From the NCBI RefSeq assembly GCF_900187365.1, contig NZ_FYDG01000006.1, forward strand, positions 1 through 64,000: a stretch of 64,000 nucleotides of DNA, read 5' to 3'. Both the position numbers and the translations under genes were made by a program. This DNA is from Rhodoblastus acidophilus (GTDB taxonomy: Bacteria > Pseudomonadota > Alphaproteobacteria > Rhizobiales > Beijerinckiaceae). This document shows, piece after piece, positions 20,088-36,151 of this stretch. The notes under the pieces are model-generated. The model did no database searches and was not told the DNA's origin. It worked only from the letters and a program-made list of their open reading frames with translations. The number at the start of each line of letters is the position of its first letter. Positions within the stretch are counted from its first letter, which is position 1.

Positions 20088-20483
20088 ATGGAGTTGCGCA
20101 TGTCGGAAGAAGCCTATGTCATTTGCGCGCTGAGCGATATTCCCAGCCAGAAGGCCAGGGGATTTCATCTCGGAATCGTCAACGAGAAGGGCGAGCCGGA
20201 ATCCTTTCCTCTCGTCGTCGTGCGCTGGGGCAAGAACGTTTTCGGCTATCGCAACAAATGCCCGCATCACGGCGTGCATCTCGACTGGGAGTCCGGCAGT
20301 TTCCTCGACGATTCCGGCCAAAGGCTCTTGTGCGGCAAGCACGGCTCGCTGTTCGAGATCGGCACGGGGCGCTGTTCCTCCGGCCCGTGCAAGGGCGAGC
20401 ATCTGGAGAAGGTGCGGCTGGAAGTGATCGACGGCGACATTTGCGTGCTCGGGCTGACGCTGATCGAGGACGAGAACGCCTGA
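20088..20483 (+). CDS. Nif-associated Rieske [2Fe-2S] protein
   Basis: A 131-aa Rieske ferredoxin-type protein. Ligands are CPHHG (Cys and His) and CGKHG (Cys and His), separated by about 16 residues; a second pair of Cys (RCSSGPCKG) follows. The ATG at 20088 has an AAGGA site; an alternative ATG lies 12 bases on. It is paralogous to the Rieske protein at 34520, and both lie beside small helper proteins, so they may feed electrons to an unidentified nif oxidoreductase. No oxygenase or membrane partner is adjacent. Confidence 0.85.
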   Translation: MELRMSEEAYVICALSDIPSQKARGFHLGIVNEKGEPESFPLVVVRWGKNVFGYRNKCPHHGVHLDWESGSFLDDSGQRLLCGKHGSLFEIGTGRCSSGPCKGEHLEKVRLEVIDGDICVLGLTLIEDENA

Positions 20484-20624: not shown

Positions 20625-21212
20625 TCAGACCGGACGGTTCTCGTTGCGGTTGCGCACCGGCAGGGCCTTGGTCAGGAAGTCCTCGAAGCTGATCTTCTCA
20701 TAGGTGTCCTTGGACTCGGCGGCCTTGTCGAGCATGAGCTGCACCTTGCCGCCGCCGTCGAGCTTCTTGAAATCGTTCTTGTCGAGGCCGGACAGGTCGG
20801 ACAATTCCTTCCACACGGTGGATTCTTCCAGCGGGAACACGGTCAGGGTCGCGTCGCCGAAGGAGACGGTGTATTTGGCCAGGAAGTCGATATTGCCGGC
20901 GAAGATGATGTAGTTGCCGGTCGACGACAGCAGCGAGCCCATCACTTCCTTGAAAGTTTTGAGATTGTTGATGTCGTGGATGTAGCCGGCCAGCGCGTCA
21001 ATGCTGGTTCCGCCGTCCTTGACGATGGCGAGGCCCTGTTCCAGGCAATATTCCGGCGGGCGCTTCTCGTCGGCCTTGGTTTCCTGGAATTTCAGGGCGA
21101 AGTCGCCGCGAAACGCCAGATAGCCGCTCTTGTCGCTGGGGCCCTTGTAGACGGCGTTGATCAGGCGGCCCGCGGTTTCAAGGCCGGCGAGGGCGGTCGT
21201 TTCAAAAGTCAT
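20625..21212 (-). CDS. Hypothetical 195-aa protein divergent from the AAA+ ATPase
   Basis: A 195-aa soluble protein with no signal peptide or transmembrane segment. I recognise no family. It has a conserved-looking stretch near residues 36-60 (FALKFQETKADEKRPPEYC), a hydrophobic strand NYIIFAGNIDFLAKYTVSFGD near 100-125, and an acidic region (LDKNDFKKLDGGGKVQ) near 145. A single Cys lies in EYCLEQG. It is divergently placed from the AAA+ ATPase with 143 bases between; the intergenic region carries RpoN-type promoters for both directions. Partner of the AAA+ protein is the likely role by context only. Confidence 0.75.
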   Translation of the reverse strand: MTFETTALAGLETAGRLINAVYKGPSDKSGYLAFRGDFALKFQETKADEKRPPEYCLEQGLAIVKDGGTSIDALAGYIHDINNLKTFKEVMGSLLSSTGNYIIFAGNIDFLAKYTVSFGDATLTVFPLEESTVWKELSDLSGLDKNDFKKLDGGGKVQLMLDKAAESKDTYEKISFEDFLTKALPVRNRNENRPV

Positions 21213-21264
21213 TTTCTTCTCCGCTTCAGAAATCGTCGCGCGTCGTCGCGCCGCTGAAGCTCAT

Positions 21265-21279
21265 GCAAATGGTTTGCCG
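21265..21279 (-). promoter_or_regulatory. Candidate RpoN promoter for the 195-aa gene
   Basis: The minus strand reads CGGCAA-N5-TTGC with correct GG/GC spacing, 52 bases before the start at 21212. A TGA-N10-ACA site (21341-21356), one mismatch from the NifA consensus, lies 61 bases upstream of the -24 element. Confidence 0.6.
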
Positions 21280-21300
21280 AAATTTTCGCCACAAAATGTC

Positions 21301-21315
21301 TGGCCTGGTCCCTGC
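21301..21315 (+). promoter_or_regulatory. Candidate RpoN promoter for the AAA+ ATPase gene
   Basis: TGGCCT-N5-CTGC, with correct GG/GC spacing but two mismatches to the -24/-12 consensus, 40 bases before the start at 21356. Weaker than the divergent minus-strand site. Confidence 0.4.
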
Positions 21316-21340
21316 TTGTCGCAAAACCGGATTGAAACGG

Positions 21341-21356
21341 TGAACGGAAGGCGACA
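21341..21356 (-). promoter_or_regulatory. Degenerate NifA-type site for the 195-aa promoter
   Basis: TGA-N10-ACA on the plus strand, that is TGT-N10-TCA on the minus strand. It ends at the AAA+ start codon and lies 61 bases upstream of the minus-strand -24 element, the spacing seen at other nif promoters here. Confidence 0.35.
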
Positions 21357-23059
21357 TGAGCGTCAAGATTCACATCGGCAGGCCCTTCGTGGAGGCGCTG
21401 GCCCAGGATTTTCCCGAACTCGAATCCCTGAAGCAGCAATTGCTGTTCGGCGACAAGGTCGAGGTCTCCTTCCTCGACCTCTCCGCGCCCCAGGTCGATC
21501 GCCTGCATGCGCTCTATGACGAGGCGGGGCCGGCGCTGCAAAACCAGCAGGCGCAGATCGCCACCTTGCGCCGCGCCTTTTCCGGCGCCGGCGAGCGTTT
21601 CGCCGCCGACGATCTGGAGGCGGTGGTGCCCGCGCTGGGCCGCTTTCTGATCGAGGACGCCCAGCGCGGCTGGTTGTTCACCCTGAGCGCAAAGCGACGT
21701 CCGCTGCCCTGGGTGGTCGCGCGCATCGACTACACGCCGGCCAATAATGACGAGACCGGCCGCATCCTTCTTGAGTTGAAGGCCAATTCCAAAGGCGAGT
21801 TGGCCACGGCGCAATTGCGCATTTCCGCCGGCGATGTCGAGGGCAAGACGATCGCGGAAATCCTGGCGTCAAAAGGGTTTTTGCATGAGACGCCGGAACT
21901 GGTCGCCGCCTATGACGCCAATGCCGACAAATACTTCGAATGGCGCGCGCATTACGGCGCCCAGTTTTCCGGCGTCGGCCTCGGCTATTTCGCGGAGGAT
22001 CCGGCCTCGACCCATCGCAACACCGATTGGGCGCGCAAGGACAGCGTCATCCTGTCGTCGGGCGGCGCCCCCGCGCGTCTCGTCAACGACGAAAGCCTGC
22101 TGGCCAATCGCGCGTTGACGCTCGAACTCACCGGCGATCTGCTCGGCGCCTATCTGCGCAAGGCCGCCAAGAGCAACAATTTCGCCGAGGAGGACGAGGT
22201 CGCCGCCGTCAACGAAACCAAGGGCCGCGATCTGTTTCGCAAGATCCCGGTGCATCCGTTCATCCTGATGTTCCACCTCGACCTGCACCATTATGTCTGG
22301 GCGCATGTCGAGGATCTCACGCCCTACGCCTACCAGCCCGATCTCAAGCAGAAACTGGTGCTGCCGGAGGAGCAGACCGACCTGATCGACATCCTCACCG
22401 CCGAAATGGACGTGCTGATGGACGACATTGTCGCGGGCAAGTCCGGCGGCACCACGGTTTTGTGCGCGGGACCGCCCGGCGTGGGAAAGACTTTGACCGC
22501 CGAAGTCTATTCGGAGATCGTGAAGCGCCCGCTCTACCGCGTCCATTCCGGCCAGCTCGGTCTCAATGTCGCGGCCATGGAGACCTCTTTGAAAGAGGCT
22601 CTGTTGCGCGCGCAACGCTGGGGCGCGGTGATGCTGATCGACGAGGCTGACGTCTATATCAAGCGCCGCCAGGACGACATGACCATGAACGCGGTCGTCG
22701 GCGTGTTCCTGCGCGTGCTCGAATATTTCAACGGCCTGCTGTTCCTCACCACCAACCGTATCGACGATATCGACGAGGCCATCGTCTCGCGCTGCATCGC
22801 GCTGATCCGCTTCCATGCGCCCGATGAGGACGCGCGGCGGCGCATCTGGGGCGTGATGGCCGAACAATTCGGCCTGAACCTGAGCGACGATCTGATCGGC
22901 CAACTGGTCACGCTTTATCCGCAGACCAGCGGGCGCGACATCAAGGGGCTGGCGAAACTGGTCGCGAAATATTGTCGCCATCGCGACACGCCCGCCGATC
23001 TCGACGTGTTCAAGCGTTGCGCCCTGTTCCGCGGCCTCGATCAAGGCGCCGCAGCGTAA
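21356..23059 (+). CDS. AAA+ ATPase with novel N-terminal region, nif-associated
   Basis: A 567-aa protein. Residues about 1-350 have no family I recognise (a small beta/alpha region, then FILMFHLDLHHYVWAHVEDLTPY near 300). Residues about 370-560 are an AAA+ module: Walker A GPPGVGKT, Walker B VMLIDEADVYI, sensor-1 region FLTTNRIDDIDEAI, and Arg residues in SRCIALIRF for the arginine-finger area, with a C-terminal lid (SGRDIKGLAKLVAKY). A hexameric remodelling ATPase is likely. It is not one of the standard nif proteins. It is divergent from the 195-aa gene and directly precedes iscA with RpoN-type promoters on both sides, so a chaperone or remodelling role for a nif protein is inferred. Confidence 0.85.
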   Translation: MSVKIHIGRPFVEALAQDFPELESLKQQLLFGDKVEVSFLDLSAPQVDRLHALYDEAGPALQNQQAQIATLRRAFSGAGERFAADDLEAVVPALGRFLIEDAQRGWLFTLSAKRRPLPWVVARIDYTPANNDETGRILLELKANSKGELATAQLRISAGDVEGKTIAEILASKGFLHETPELVAAYDANADKYFEWRAHYGAQFSGVGLGYFAEDPASTHRNTDWARKDSVILSSGGAPARLVNDESLLANRALTLELTGDLLGAYLRKAAKSNNFAEEDEVAAVNETKGRDLFRKIPVHPFILMFHLDLHHYVWAHVEDLTPYAYQPDLKQKLVLPEEQTDLIDILTAEMDVLMDDIVAGKSGGTTVLCAGPPGVGKTLTAEVYSEIVKRPLYRVHSGQLGLNVAAMETSLKEALLRAQRWGAVMLIDEADVYIKRRQDDMTMNAVVGVFLRVLEYFNGLLFLTTNRIDDIDEAIVSRCIALIRFHAPDEDARRRIWGVMAEQFGLNLSDDLIGQLVTLYPQTSGRDIKGLAKLVAKYCRHRDTPADLDVFKRCALFRGLDQGAAA

Positions 23060-25574: not shown

Positions 25575-26459
25575 ATGGCGACAGCAGCCCTGCTTGCCGA
25601 CGCGCTCGCTGACGAGGCGATTCTTTCTGGAGACGAAGCCGAAAAGGTTTTGGGCGAAGTGGCGGCGCGGCTGCGCGCCGGCGAAGTGGTTCCCTATCTC
25701 GGCGCGGCCGTGGTGGGCATGTCCCAACCCGACATCCCGCTCGGGCCAGAAGGCCTCGCCGAATTCTTCGGCAAGAAGGTGGCGCTGCCGCGTCGTGCGC
25801 GCGGAAACGCCTGGGCCTCCGCGCAATATATCGAAGGCTACAAGCTGCGCCCGACCGTGGTCGCCTTCATGACGGAAGCGTTTTCGGCGCCGATCAAGCC
25901 CGCGCCGCTGCAAAGCTGGCTGGCCTCGCTTGGCCTGCCGCTGATCGTCGACACCTGGTACGATGGCGCGATGCGCAAGGCTTTGTCCGACCAGGGCGAC
26001 TGGGGCGAGGTTCAGGGCATTTCCCGCGCCGGCATCGGCGAGAACCGCTGGTTCCGCTTCTACGATTCCACGGGCGGCGAAGCCAAGGCCGCCGATGCGG
26101 CAGGCTGGAAAACGCTGCTTTACAAGCCGCACGGCGCGGCGGCGCCGGCGAAGAACTATCTCATCTCCGACGCGGATTATGTCGAGGTTTTGACCGAGAT
26201 CGACATCCAGACGCCGATCCCCGACGCGGTGAAGGACCGTCGTGGCGGCCGCGCCTTTCTCTATCTCGGCTGCCGTTTCCACGACCAGATGCTGCGCACC
26301 TACGCCCGGCAGGTGTCCAAGCGCTCGGCGCCGCCGCATTATGCGGTGATCGAGCCGGACCAGGAATTGTCGCTGAACGAGAAGCGTTTCTACGCGGCGG
26401 AAAACATTGTTCCGCTGGCGATCCCGCTGGCGCGGGCCTGCGACATTCTCATGGGGTGA
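25575..26459 (+). CDS. SIR2-like domain protein of the nif cluster
   Basis: A 294-aa protein. Residues about 34-60 (LRAGEVVPYLGAAVVGMSQPDIP) resemble the glycine-rich nucleotide loop of SIR2-like proteins, and VDTWYDGAMRKAL resembles their N/D motif. It lacks the zinc Cys and the HG catalytic motif of true deacylase sirtuins, so NAD binding or hydrolysis is possible but not shown. The C-terminal region (FLYLGCRFHDQMLRTYARQVSKRSAPPHYAVIEPD) is consistent with the SIR2-like group. It follows nifT closely and ends with a strong terminator, so belongs to the fdxN operon. Confidence 0.75.
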   Translation: MATAALLADALADEAILSGDEAEKVLGEVAARLRAGEVVPYLGAAVVGMSQPDIPLGPEGLAEFFGKKVALPRRARGNAWASAQYIEGYKLRPTVVAFMTEAFSAPIKPAPLQSWLASLGLPLIVDTWYDGAMRKALSDQGDWGEVQGISRAGIGENRWFRFYDSTGGEAKAADAAGWKTLLYKPHGAAAPAKNYLISDADYVEVLTEIDIQTPIPDAVKDRRGGRAFLYLGCRFHDQMLRTYARQVSKRSAPPHYAVIEPDQELSLNEKRFYAAENIVPLAIPLARACDILMG

Positions 26460-29124: not shown

Positions 29125-29661
29125 ATGATCGAGACCGCGTCGCGTCAGACCGAGGTTTTGATCGCCGAAGAGGGGGTGTTGTCGCACCCGCTCTTCGGCG
29201 GCGGTCTTTCAGGGGAAGCCGAACGCGCGCTGGCGCAGGCGGGGTCAAACTACGCGGACGCGCCGACCGCCGAAGCTTTTTTGCGCGAGGCCGAAGCGGC
29301 GGCGCCCGACCATTTCGCGGTGCTGATCGGCTGGTATCGCTATTATTTCTACAAGGGCCGGCTTGAGGAAGCCCTCGCCGTGGGCCAGCGCTGCCTGATC
29401 AAGGTCGCGCGCGAAAAGAATTTTGCGACGGACTGGCGCGAGGTGCGCGCCGACGACGCTGCCTTCGGCTCCTACGACGACGTAATGGCGCGGTTTTTCA
29501 TGTTCTGTCTCAAGGGCTACGCCTATCTGCACATGCGCCTGGGCGATCTGGCGGAAGGCCGCGCCGCCGCCGAAAAACTCCTGACCCTCGATCCCACCGA
29601 CCGCATCAACGCCCGGCTGCTGCTGGACGTGCTCCAGCGCGCGGAGAGCGACGATGAATGA
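29125..29661 (+). CDS. TPR-type helical repeat protein
   Basis: A 178-aa helical protein with TPR-like repeats: SEAERALAQAG-type, FAVLIGWYRYYFYKGRLEEALAVGQ and KGYAYLHMRLGDLAEGRAAAEKLLTLDP. TPR proteins mediate protein-protein contacts. It starts one base after the iscA stop and overlaps the next gene by eight bases, so it is part of a tightly coupled operon. It has no defined role in nitrogen fixation that I know. Confidence 0.75.
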   Translation: MIETASRQTEVLIAEEGVLSHPLFGGGLSGEAERALAQAGSNYADAPTAEAFLREAEAAAPDHFAVLIGWYRYYFYKGRLEEALAVGQRCLIKVAREKNFATDWREVRADDAAFGSYDDVMARFFMFCLKGYAYLHMRLGDLAEGRAAAEKLLTLDPTDRINARLLLDVLQRAESDDE

Positions 29662-35612: not shown

Positions 35613-35755
35613 GGCGCCGTTCGCCTGTTGCAGTGCGCAAAGATCGTTTATGATGACATCGAATTGACGCAAGGCGCCGACTATGAGTTGGGCGGCGCAT
35701 GGCGTCGAAAGGATTTGGCCGGGCGAGAGCCTGGCCGTAATGGAGTGTGGATGAA

Positions 35756-36151
35756 ATGAACGACACGGCGGCTGGCAGCATGTATGAGCGCATCGGCGGC
35801 GCCGCGACGATCGAGCGGGTGGTCGAGAGTTTCTATCGCAATATGAACCTGATGCCGCAGGCGCAGACCATCCGCGCCATGCACGGCGACGGTCTCACCG
35901 GCATGAAGATCGCGCTGAAGAAATATTTGACCGAATGGACCGGCGGCCCCGGCGTTTATTCGTCGGAAAAGGGCCATCCGCCGCACATGCGCGAACGGCA
36001 CGCGACCTTTCCCATCGACAATTACGCCCGCGACATCTGGATGGACTGCATGGACCAGGCGCTGGAGGAGCACATCACGGACGAAGGCGTCCGCGCGCAA
36101 CTGCGTGAAAATGTGAAGACGCTCGCGGATCAGATGCGCAACACCAAATAA
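35756..36151 (+). CDS. Truncated haemoglobin, tandem copy
   Basis: A 131-aa globin paralogous to the previous gene (YERIGGAATIERVVESFYRNMNLMPQAQTIRAMHGDG, KKYLTEWTGGPGVYS, MRERHATFPIDNYARDIWMDCMDQAL). The proximal His is in RERHATF. The ATG at 35756 is used; a GTG lies three codons earlier. The intergenic region from 35613 has no RpoN consensus; it may be read through or have its own promoter. It is followed by a terminator. Confidence 0.92.
   Translation: MNDTAAGSMYERIGGAATIERVVESFYRNMNLMPQAQTIRAMHGDGLTGMKIALKKYLTEWTGGPGVYSSEKGHPPHMRERHATFPIDNYARDIWMDCMDQALEEHITDEGVRAQLRENVKTLADQMRNTK

Follow-up and report, generated by a model that had tools for sequence, protein, structure and literature searches.

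In a 64,000-nucleotide stretch of Rhodoblastus acidophilus (contig NZ_FYDG01000006.1, positions 1 to 64,000; hereafter the window), two divergent genes lie 143 bp apart within the nif cluster, one coding for an AAA+ ATPase and the other for a protein of 195 amino acids (aa), here called P195. In our reading, both are accessories to one process, and they have become adjacent in a single group of bacteria. The explanation that we propose, with a probability of roughly 0.5, is that these are two separate accessory nif genes with a common divergent promoter region, the ATPase being a nif-dedicated remodeller and P195 a NifA-regulated accessory or protective protein. It draws on gene structure, motifs, near-restriction to diazotrophs among the genomes sampled, sigma54-like sites, the tail of P195 and gene neighbours, all observed in this work, and on published papers for the NifA dependence, or the NifA and RpoN sites, of orthologues. 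The nif assignment of both genes is solid; their interpretation as a joint machine is not. The features in question are as follows.

20625..21212, minus strand: P195 (195 aa), an open reading frame (ORF) of an unnamed nif-associated family, with a compact alpha/beta body and the C-terminal tail ENRPV
21279-21264, minus strand: sigma54-like -24/-12 site toward P195, CGGCAAACCATTTGCA, scoring 18.5 of 22
21301-21316, plus strand: sigma54-like -24/-12 site toward the ATPase, TGGCCTGGTCCCTGCT, scoring 18 of 22, 39 bp before the ATPase ATG
21356..23059, plus strand: nif-clade AAA+ ATPase (567 aa), an ORF with an N-terminal domain (N-domain, residues 1-330) without family and a single AAA module

The ORF calls and the 143-bp gap agree with the coordinates given in a preliminary description of the locus, whose account of the two proteins also stood: neither gene is in the standard nif set, the ATPase has an intact Walker A, Walker B and sensor region (kept across 53 aligned homologues), its N-terminal part of about 330 residues (about 350 had been proposed) belongs to no Pfam or NCBIfam family, and P195 is likewise unassigned. 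The claim that the system is undescribed was close to correct. We found no functional study of either family in the open-access literature searched, only expression or gene-list papers, and orthologues do appear in published expression tables as hypothetical proteins.

Distribution of the two genes

Among the genomes sampled, both families are nearly restricted to diazotrophs. P195 was present in 13 of the 398 genomes of a Pseudomonadota sample, and all 13 have nifD over the NCBIfam cut-off. In a sample of 89 genomes of the family, 11 have the ATPase, 11 have nifD over the cut-off and 9 have both (Fisher test, p = 4.5e-9), the genome rows of our samples not being phylogenetically independent. 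The two exceptions are G518, in which a 165-bit nifD-family fragment lies at the edge of a contig, and G512, with no nifD match. The Pseudomonadota sample gave a full-type ATPase (E<1e-30) in five genomes, four of them with nifD over the cut-off; in the fifth (G124), whose ATPase gene is broken, the match reaches 310 bits and is nifE-like. The same sample also held three genomes that have a weak relative (E 3e-9 to 1e-4) and no nifD match.

The ATPase follows nitrogen fixation, not the nif cluster as such, and is often far from nif. Our locus counts describe close homologues, as the best 80 of 248 confirmed ATPase loci were kept; by a strict rule applied to the fetched stretch, at least two nif genes accompany the ATPase in 18 of these 80, one in 13 and none in 49. 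When 49 of 50 genomes first sorted as having an ATPase not linked to nif were searched for nifD, it was found over the NCBIfam cut-off in 41 and as a weaker or partial match in 5, with no match in 3. In a tree of 58 rows, which we chose ourselves and for part of which the nif status is known, a 100/100 branch with a long stem splits 48 nif-type ATPases from ten distant homologues, some of which stand on very long branches. The nearest named homologues among the best 80 loci belong to R. acidophilus and R. sphagnicola (90-91%). Many hosts of these loci, which are proteobacteria, are aerobic or microaerobic, which fits a role in oxygen-related damage; this association is confounded by descent and by the choice of the best 80 of 248 loci.

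The neighbours of the ATPase differ among clades. In the window they are nif assembly genes, namely an iscA-type gene, the nifU C-domain, cysE and nifW. On an 89.6-kb plasmid of Methylococcus sp. EFPC2 (NZ_CP070492.1, loci L111/L112), which has a large set of nif, isc and rnf genes including nifA and nifL and also encodes clpP, clpX and lon, the ATPase gene is co-directional with nifV-nifW, from which seven genes separate it. In 11 methanotroph loci (L055, L057 and L024 among them) the beginning of the ATPase gene is overlapped by 4 nt by a nitroreductase-family gene (PF00881, tested on L055), and in one further locus the overlap is larger; the product of this gene is a possible client or partner of the ATPase. 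A small tetratricopeptide repeat (TPR) protein of the window (29125-29661, PF13428), whose gene lies downstream of nifB with iscA-like and HEAT-like genes on either side, has a relative in Rhodopila (31% identity, E 2e-14) whose gene ends on the ATPase gene start; genes of the same ORF group do so in Thiothrix and Novosphingobium as well.

Sequence, tail and neighbours of P195

P195 matched no NCBIfam family, and its Pfam matches were at chance level. We aligned it in 18 rows (alignment and profile A1), made up of the window protein plus those from 17 of the 20 best-80 loci that have P195; L006, L019 and L039, cut or frame-broken, were omitted. NRPV ends all 18 aligned proteins, and ENRPV ends 9 of 9 further full-type proteins. 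The tail is missing from 5 of 5 shorter P195 paralogues and from 4 of 4 short-type relatives, which end in GAV, GAI or GPV. One such paralogue, of 173 aa (L100, G000:C29:472189-472707), is encoded in the source genome on another contig than nif, divergently from a triosephosphate isomerase gene (PF00121). The AlphaFold2 (AF2) model of P195 is confident (pLDDT 89.8) except at the very end, where residues 192-195 fall below 50. The invariant tail may dock to a partner. A role of the tail as a tag for the ATPase was considered and rejected, since the tail also persists where no ATPase was found. Foldseek found no fold in the PDB for the model at E<=0.001, and the best match of the P195 profile among PDB entries (E 0.011) was taken as chance.

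Among 54 loci, the genes within 1.5 kb of P195 most often code for a truncated haemoglobin (23), a Rieske protein (21), NifH (17) or a NifS-like protein (14), and more rarely for an IscA-like protein (11), a NifU-like protein (10) or the ATPase (8); the globin label rests on PF01152 for the query proteins of the window and EFPC2. These loci comprise 15 of the 20 P195-bearing loci of the best-80 list, 35 from other genomes and 4 from plasmids. Five (L002, L003, L006, L033 and L039) were omitted because they were near-copies, were cut by the end of a contig or duplicated L154; four of the five have the ATPase within 1.5 kb, and adding all but the duplicate brings the ATPase to 11 of 58. The window itself has a Bacterial-like globin gene (35747-36151, PF01152), which is apart from P195, although its relatives directly adjoin P195 in other diazotrophs. 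P195 also occurs in ten plasmid records, from Bradyrhizobium, Paraburkholderia, Cupriavidus and Methylococcus. Four were examined. On the Methylococcus nif plasmid P195 is flanked by genes for a Rieske protein and a truncated haemoglobin, with nifH close by; one Bradyrhizobium and one Paraburkholderia plasmid have P195 in the vicinity of nif genes, and one Cupriavidus plasmid has it near nod genes.

Promoter region and regulation

The intergenic region of the pair (21213-21355) has, as the preliminary description had it, RpoN-type (sigma54-like) sites in both directions. We scored sigma54-like sites with weights of our own, at a threshold of 18 of 22. All 10 head-to-head intergenic regions examined, that of the window and those of nine relatives, have a site scoring at least 18 in each direction. 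When the 143 bp were shuffled 5000 times by mononucleotide, both sites arose together in 0.02% of cases, and a 143-bp frame slid across the window had both in 0.12%. A site in a single direction is not rare, as 38 of 283 control ORFs score 18 within 300 bp (this comparison used a hand-made list of 29 nif-linked loci). The two sites are weaker than those of nifH, nifE, nifB, iscA (23203) and nifX (19.5-21), and stronger than the best ones upstream of the Rieske gene, nifQ and DegT (14.5-17.5).

A sigma54-like site together with a NifA site (TGT-N10-ACA) 50-180 bp upstream was present in 15 of 62 ATPase genes at loci with fewer than two nif genes, as against 7 of 395 control ORFs (strict rule of at least two nif genes; Fisher test, p = 1.6e-9, an optimistic value since the rows are related); most of the 15 loci are from related betaproteobacteria. 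In one genome (G579, 4.45 Mb) the ATPase gene, preceded by both a sigma54-like site and a NifA-type element, lies between hydrogenase-like structural genes and hyp-like genes, all named by eye. The gene list published for Azoarcus BH72 places the probable orthologue azo3791, a "conserved hypothetical ATPase", among 8 genes with both RpoN and NifA sites, hoxB being azo3807 (PMC3916325).

For P195, published expression tables are consistent with NifA-dependent expression. Bphy_7752 of P. phymatum, our P195 match H7 on the Paraburkholderia plasmid, has a log2 fold change of -11.54 in nifA nodules; no row with a number follows it in the nifA-down list, where the rows below are NA, with zero reads in the mutant (PMC8305402). 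In Bradyrhizobium, the protein of the presumed orthologue bll1754 is up by 6.2 log2 under microoxic conditions, against 6.0 for NifD, and 120.9-fold in bacteroids (PMC6515984), and a nifA/nifH nodule table lists bll1754 at -4.8 log2, a single value that we take as nifA versus wild type (PMC4926349).

Architecture of the ATPase

The only Pfam domain above cut-off in the ATPase is the AAA domain (PF00004, residues 368-486, E 2e-16, 61 bits versus a cut-off of 21.2). In an alignment of 53 rows (A2; the window protein plus those from 52 of the 80 loci), Walker A reads GP(P/A)GVGKT, with I replacing V in one row. There is no variation in the Walker B VMLIDEAD, in the TTN of sensor 1, in a single Arg finger (R479) or in GRDIK. 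Residues 1-330 of the window protein match no Pfam family up to E 0.1, the N-domains of 17 relatives give Pfam matches at chance level only, and the N-domain profile has no match among PDB sequences at E<=1. The AF2 model, built from the 53 rows, has a fair N-domain, with blocks of 74-93 pLDDT over residues 1-210, for which Foldseek returned nothing at E<=0.001.

Judged from its sequence, the ATPase is equipped as a remodeller, and no protease domain is among its Pfam matches. No ClpX model is among its 20 NCBIfam matches up to E 1, and the sigma54-activator AAA domain of the NifA/NtrC type is absent from its Pfam and NCBIfam scans. Canonical threading unfoldases of the ClpX, FtsH and CDC48 type have an aromatic-hydrophobic-Gly pore loop 1; in the alignment, the corresponding region of the ATPase is GLNVA, compared with KWVG in an archaeal VCP-like chain, and its N404 and V405 are each conserved in 51 of the 53 rows.

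One machine or two accessories

The preliminary description saw in the pair a nif-regulated remodelling machine and its partner or substrate adaptor. Nif-like regulation and a plausible remodeller survive our analysis; one machine with its partner is at best weakly supported, since the two genes are adjacent in 10 of 80 loci and P195 often occurs without the ATPase. Co-occurrence with nif in other genomes, which that description had proposed as a check, was found in that both genes track nifD (13/13 and 9/11), although the ATPase is often unlinked to nif. That the two proteins form one remodelling system, P195 being an adaptor, activator or substrate whose tail enters the ATPase, seems to us unlikely. 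Of 50 genomes with the ATPase, a set that we chose, that includes 10 hand-listed nif-linked loci and that leaves out 18 best-80 loci with P195 in the fetched stretch, 42 also have P195, as the full type in 27 and as the short type in 15; in the phylum sample P195 was present in 4 of 4 nifD-positive genomes with the ATPase and in 9 of 37 without it (Fisher test, p = 0.007). These figures favour one system, as does the promoter region common to both genes in the 10 head-to-head loci. McrC is the partner of the AAA+ protein McrB, and it is also the best structural match of P195, at a non-significant level (E 0.014, TM 0.27) that does not make P195 an McrC-like partner.

Against one system, P195 is frequent without the ATPase, its commonest neighbours code for truncated haemoglobin, Rieske protein and NifH, and the adjacency (gap <1 kb; some of the 80 loci are cut by contig ends) is confined to one group of Rhizobiales or Beijerinckiaceae, with Rhodoblastus, Bradyrhizobium, Azorhizobium and Afipia among the hosts. 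The gene that P195 directly faces is instead an iscA-like one, at about 275 bp, in five loci of the Methylocystis group (L155-L158, L160), where the ATPase is elsewhere. Bradyrhizobium sp. 187 has P195 at the same place, and no ATPase was found either in its incomplete gene table or in the plasmid N-domain search. Five genomes and three plasmid records in which we found no nif-type ATPase retain the NRPV tail, and, of the four short-type P195s that end otherwise, two are from ATPase-bearing genomes (G064 and G132). We prefer two accessories because the adjacency is limited to one group, P195 occurs without the ATPase, and its tail is the same either way.

A number of results weigh against the two-accessory explanation as worded above. 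Two nifD-positive genomes of the family sample lack the ATPase, one of them of the same genus (G003, G027), and just 4 of the 41 nifD-positive genomes of the phylum sample have it; it is therefore not needed for fixation in general. The Methylosinus sporium assembly G474, which seems to be identical to G512, carries both the ATPase and P195 with no nifD match, which may reflect nif loss or an assembly gap (it is the DSM 17706 record of L055, and also carries a P195 paralogue), and two more of the 49 ATPase genomes are without any nifD match. A further sample of 199 genomes gave 27 ATPase matches, 20 of them at E<1e-50, and the nifD search covered 2 of these 20, both among the 49 genomes above. 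In 32 plasmid records the homologues are distant ones (22-29% across the N-domain) outside the nif type; the four examined are all in non-nif settings, so that the fold is not nif-specific. As for regulation, the exact NifA site TGT-N10-ACA was not found in the P195/ATPase intergenic region of the window, the geometry of promoter plus NifA site occurs in 0 of 18 nif-linked ATPase loci, and the published table marks bll1754 "-" for NifA+RpoN1 targets (PMC6515984). Gene order, not sequence, makes azo3791 probably the ATPase orthologue (from G579) and bll1754 presumably the Bradyrhizobium P195 orthologue (blr1753 Rieske-type, bll1754, blr1755 iscN; neighbouring locus tags are given in PMC8632152). 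Finally, the AAA domain is poorly modelled in the AF2 structure, and the client and activity that we ascribe to the ATPase below are predictions. By its distribution, which is near nif-only and covers few nifD-positive genomes, the ATPase looks like a diazotroph accessory and not a core part.

Proposed function

We infer the following mechanism, in which the hexamer, the identity of the client, the remodelling and the docking of the tail go beyond what we observed. The ATPase would be a nif-dedicated, probably hexameric and non-proteolytic AAA+ remodeller, whose N-domain may bind a client made or stressed during fixation, such as an electron carrier, a component of nitrogenase or a protein of Fe-S or cofactor assembly; hydrolysis of ATP would then pull this client from a dead-end or damaged state. 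P195 would work beside the truncated haemoglobin, the Rieske protein and nitrogenase, and might dock to a partner via its exposed C-terminal NRPV. That the ATPase is near nif-only and yet present in few diazotrophs is easier to reconcile with repair or rescue than with a part in core assembly, and the position of P195 beside truncated haemoglobin and Rieske genes fits protection or electron-transfer support of nitrogenase. By analogy, and at rather poor odds, the ATPase might be a nitrogenase activase of proteobacterial diazotrophs, which would release nitrogenase (or its Fe protein, or a redox partner) when trapped in a complex that is inhibited, damaged by oxygen or locked, as Rubisco activase does for Rubisco; P195 would then be a second, independent protein associated with nitrogenase, its NRPV inserting in a conserved pocket on nitrogenase or the adjacent truncated haemoglobin.

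A role of the ATPase as a maturation factor of the MoxR or chelatase kind, driving metal cluster or cofactor insertion while nitrogenase or a nif-linked redox enzyme is assembled, as opposed to repair of finished enzyme, is possible but doubtful. The nif assembly genes around the ATPase in the window, the overlap with the end of the nitroreductase-family gene in the 11 methanotroph loci and the apparent hydrogenase (hup/hyp) cluster of G579 would all suit such a factor; the absence of the ATPase from 37 of 41 nifD-positive genomes means that core cofactor assembly does not need it, and its neighbours vary from clade to clade. Moreover, no MoxR, NorQ or CbbQ model is among its NCBIfam matches, and its chelatase-like matches are far under cut-off (YifB, 14.8 bits versus 530; Mg_chelatase, 11.9 versus 20.3). 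A function of the ATPase in defence or general stress, with nif islands as mere vehicles, is highly improbable. Its AAA domain does weakly match the IetA/IteA anti-phage and TRIP13-like ATPases, and two distant plasmid homologues adjoin DNA methyltransferase or Cas genes, but the IteA match (NF042959) reaches 32.7 bits versus a cut-off of 510 and covers residues 331-533 only, the nif-type group tracks nifD even when unlinked, and part of it has the geometry of sigma54 and NifA sites. We retain the nif-dedicated remodeller and the NifA-regulated accessory or protective protein as the working explanation of the two genes.

Other genes of the window and source genome

The nif cluster of the window comprises nifHDK, nifEN, nifX, nifQ, nifW, nifT, nifB and nifZ, several of them named by eye. 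Two further features of the region are as follows.

20100..20483, plus strand: Rieske [2Fe-2S] protein (PF00355, E 3e-10), converging on P195; its start codon was chosen by us
23203: iscA, with a sigma54-like site stronger than both P195/ATPase sites

A SIR2_2-domain protein (25575-26459) recurs by nif genes in several lineages, and the EFPC2 nif plasmid likewise carries a SIR2 family protein. Outside the window, the source genome has two more nifD-family genes (G000:C38:249085-250416 and G000:C39:75639-76970; 369 and 357 bits), which suggests alternative nitrogenases, and further nitrogenase-like matches on its contigs C29, C57, C54 and C24.

Significance and comparison with known systems

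The engineering of nitrogenase leans on a known parts list, and the two conserved nif-linked families could be missing parts of it, with candidate roles in stability, oxygen recovery or maturation in aerobic diazotrophs. Orthologues of both are present in culturable strains, in which they are directly deletable.

Within the AAA family (PF00004) the ATPase is closest to the CDC48/VCP/proteasomal side, with which it has Walker A and B, sensor 1 and the Arg finger in common, and its best PDB sequence matches are VCP-like ATPases; it differs from that side by its one AAA module, its family-less N-domain, its one conserved Arg finger and the lack of the aromatic-hydrophobic-Gly pore loop. With the IteA/IetA proteins it has a similar AAA core, but the match is confined to that part, and its setting is nif, not defence. 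An AAA+ ATPase encoded with nif genes has a precedent in ClpX2 of the Azotobacter nif cluster, which is of a different AAA+ family. Rubisco activase and CbbX are dedicated AAA+ remodellers of one metabolic enzyme that work without a protease. The functional analogy to these is our own; no such model is among the NCBIfam matches of the ATPase.

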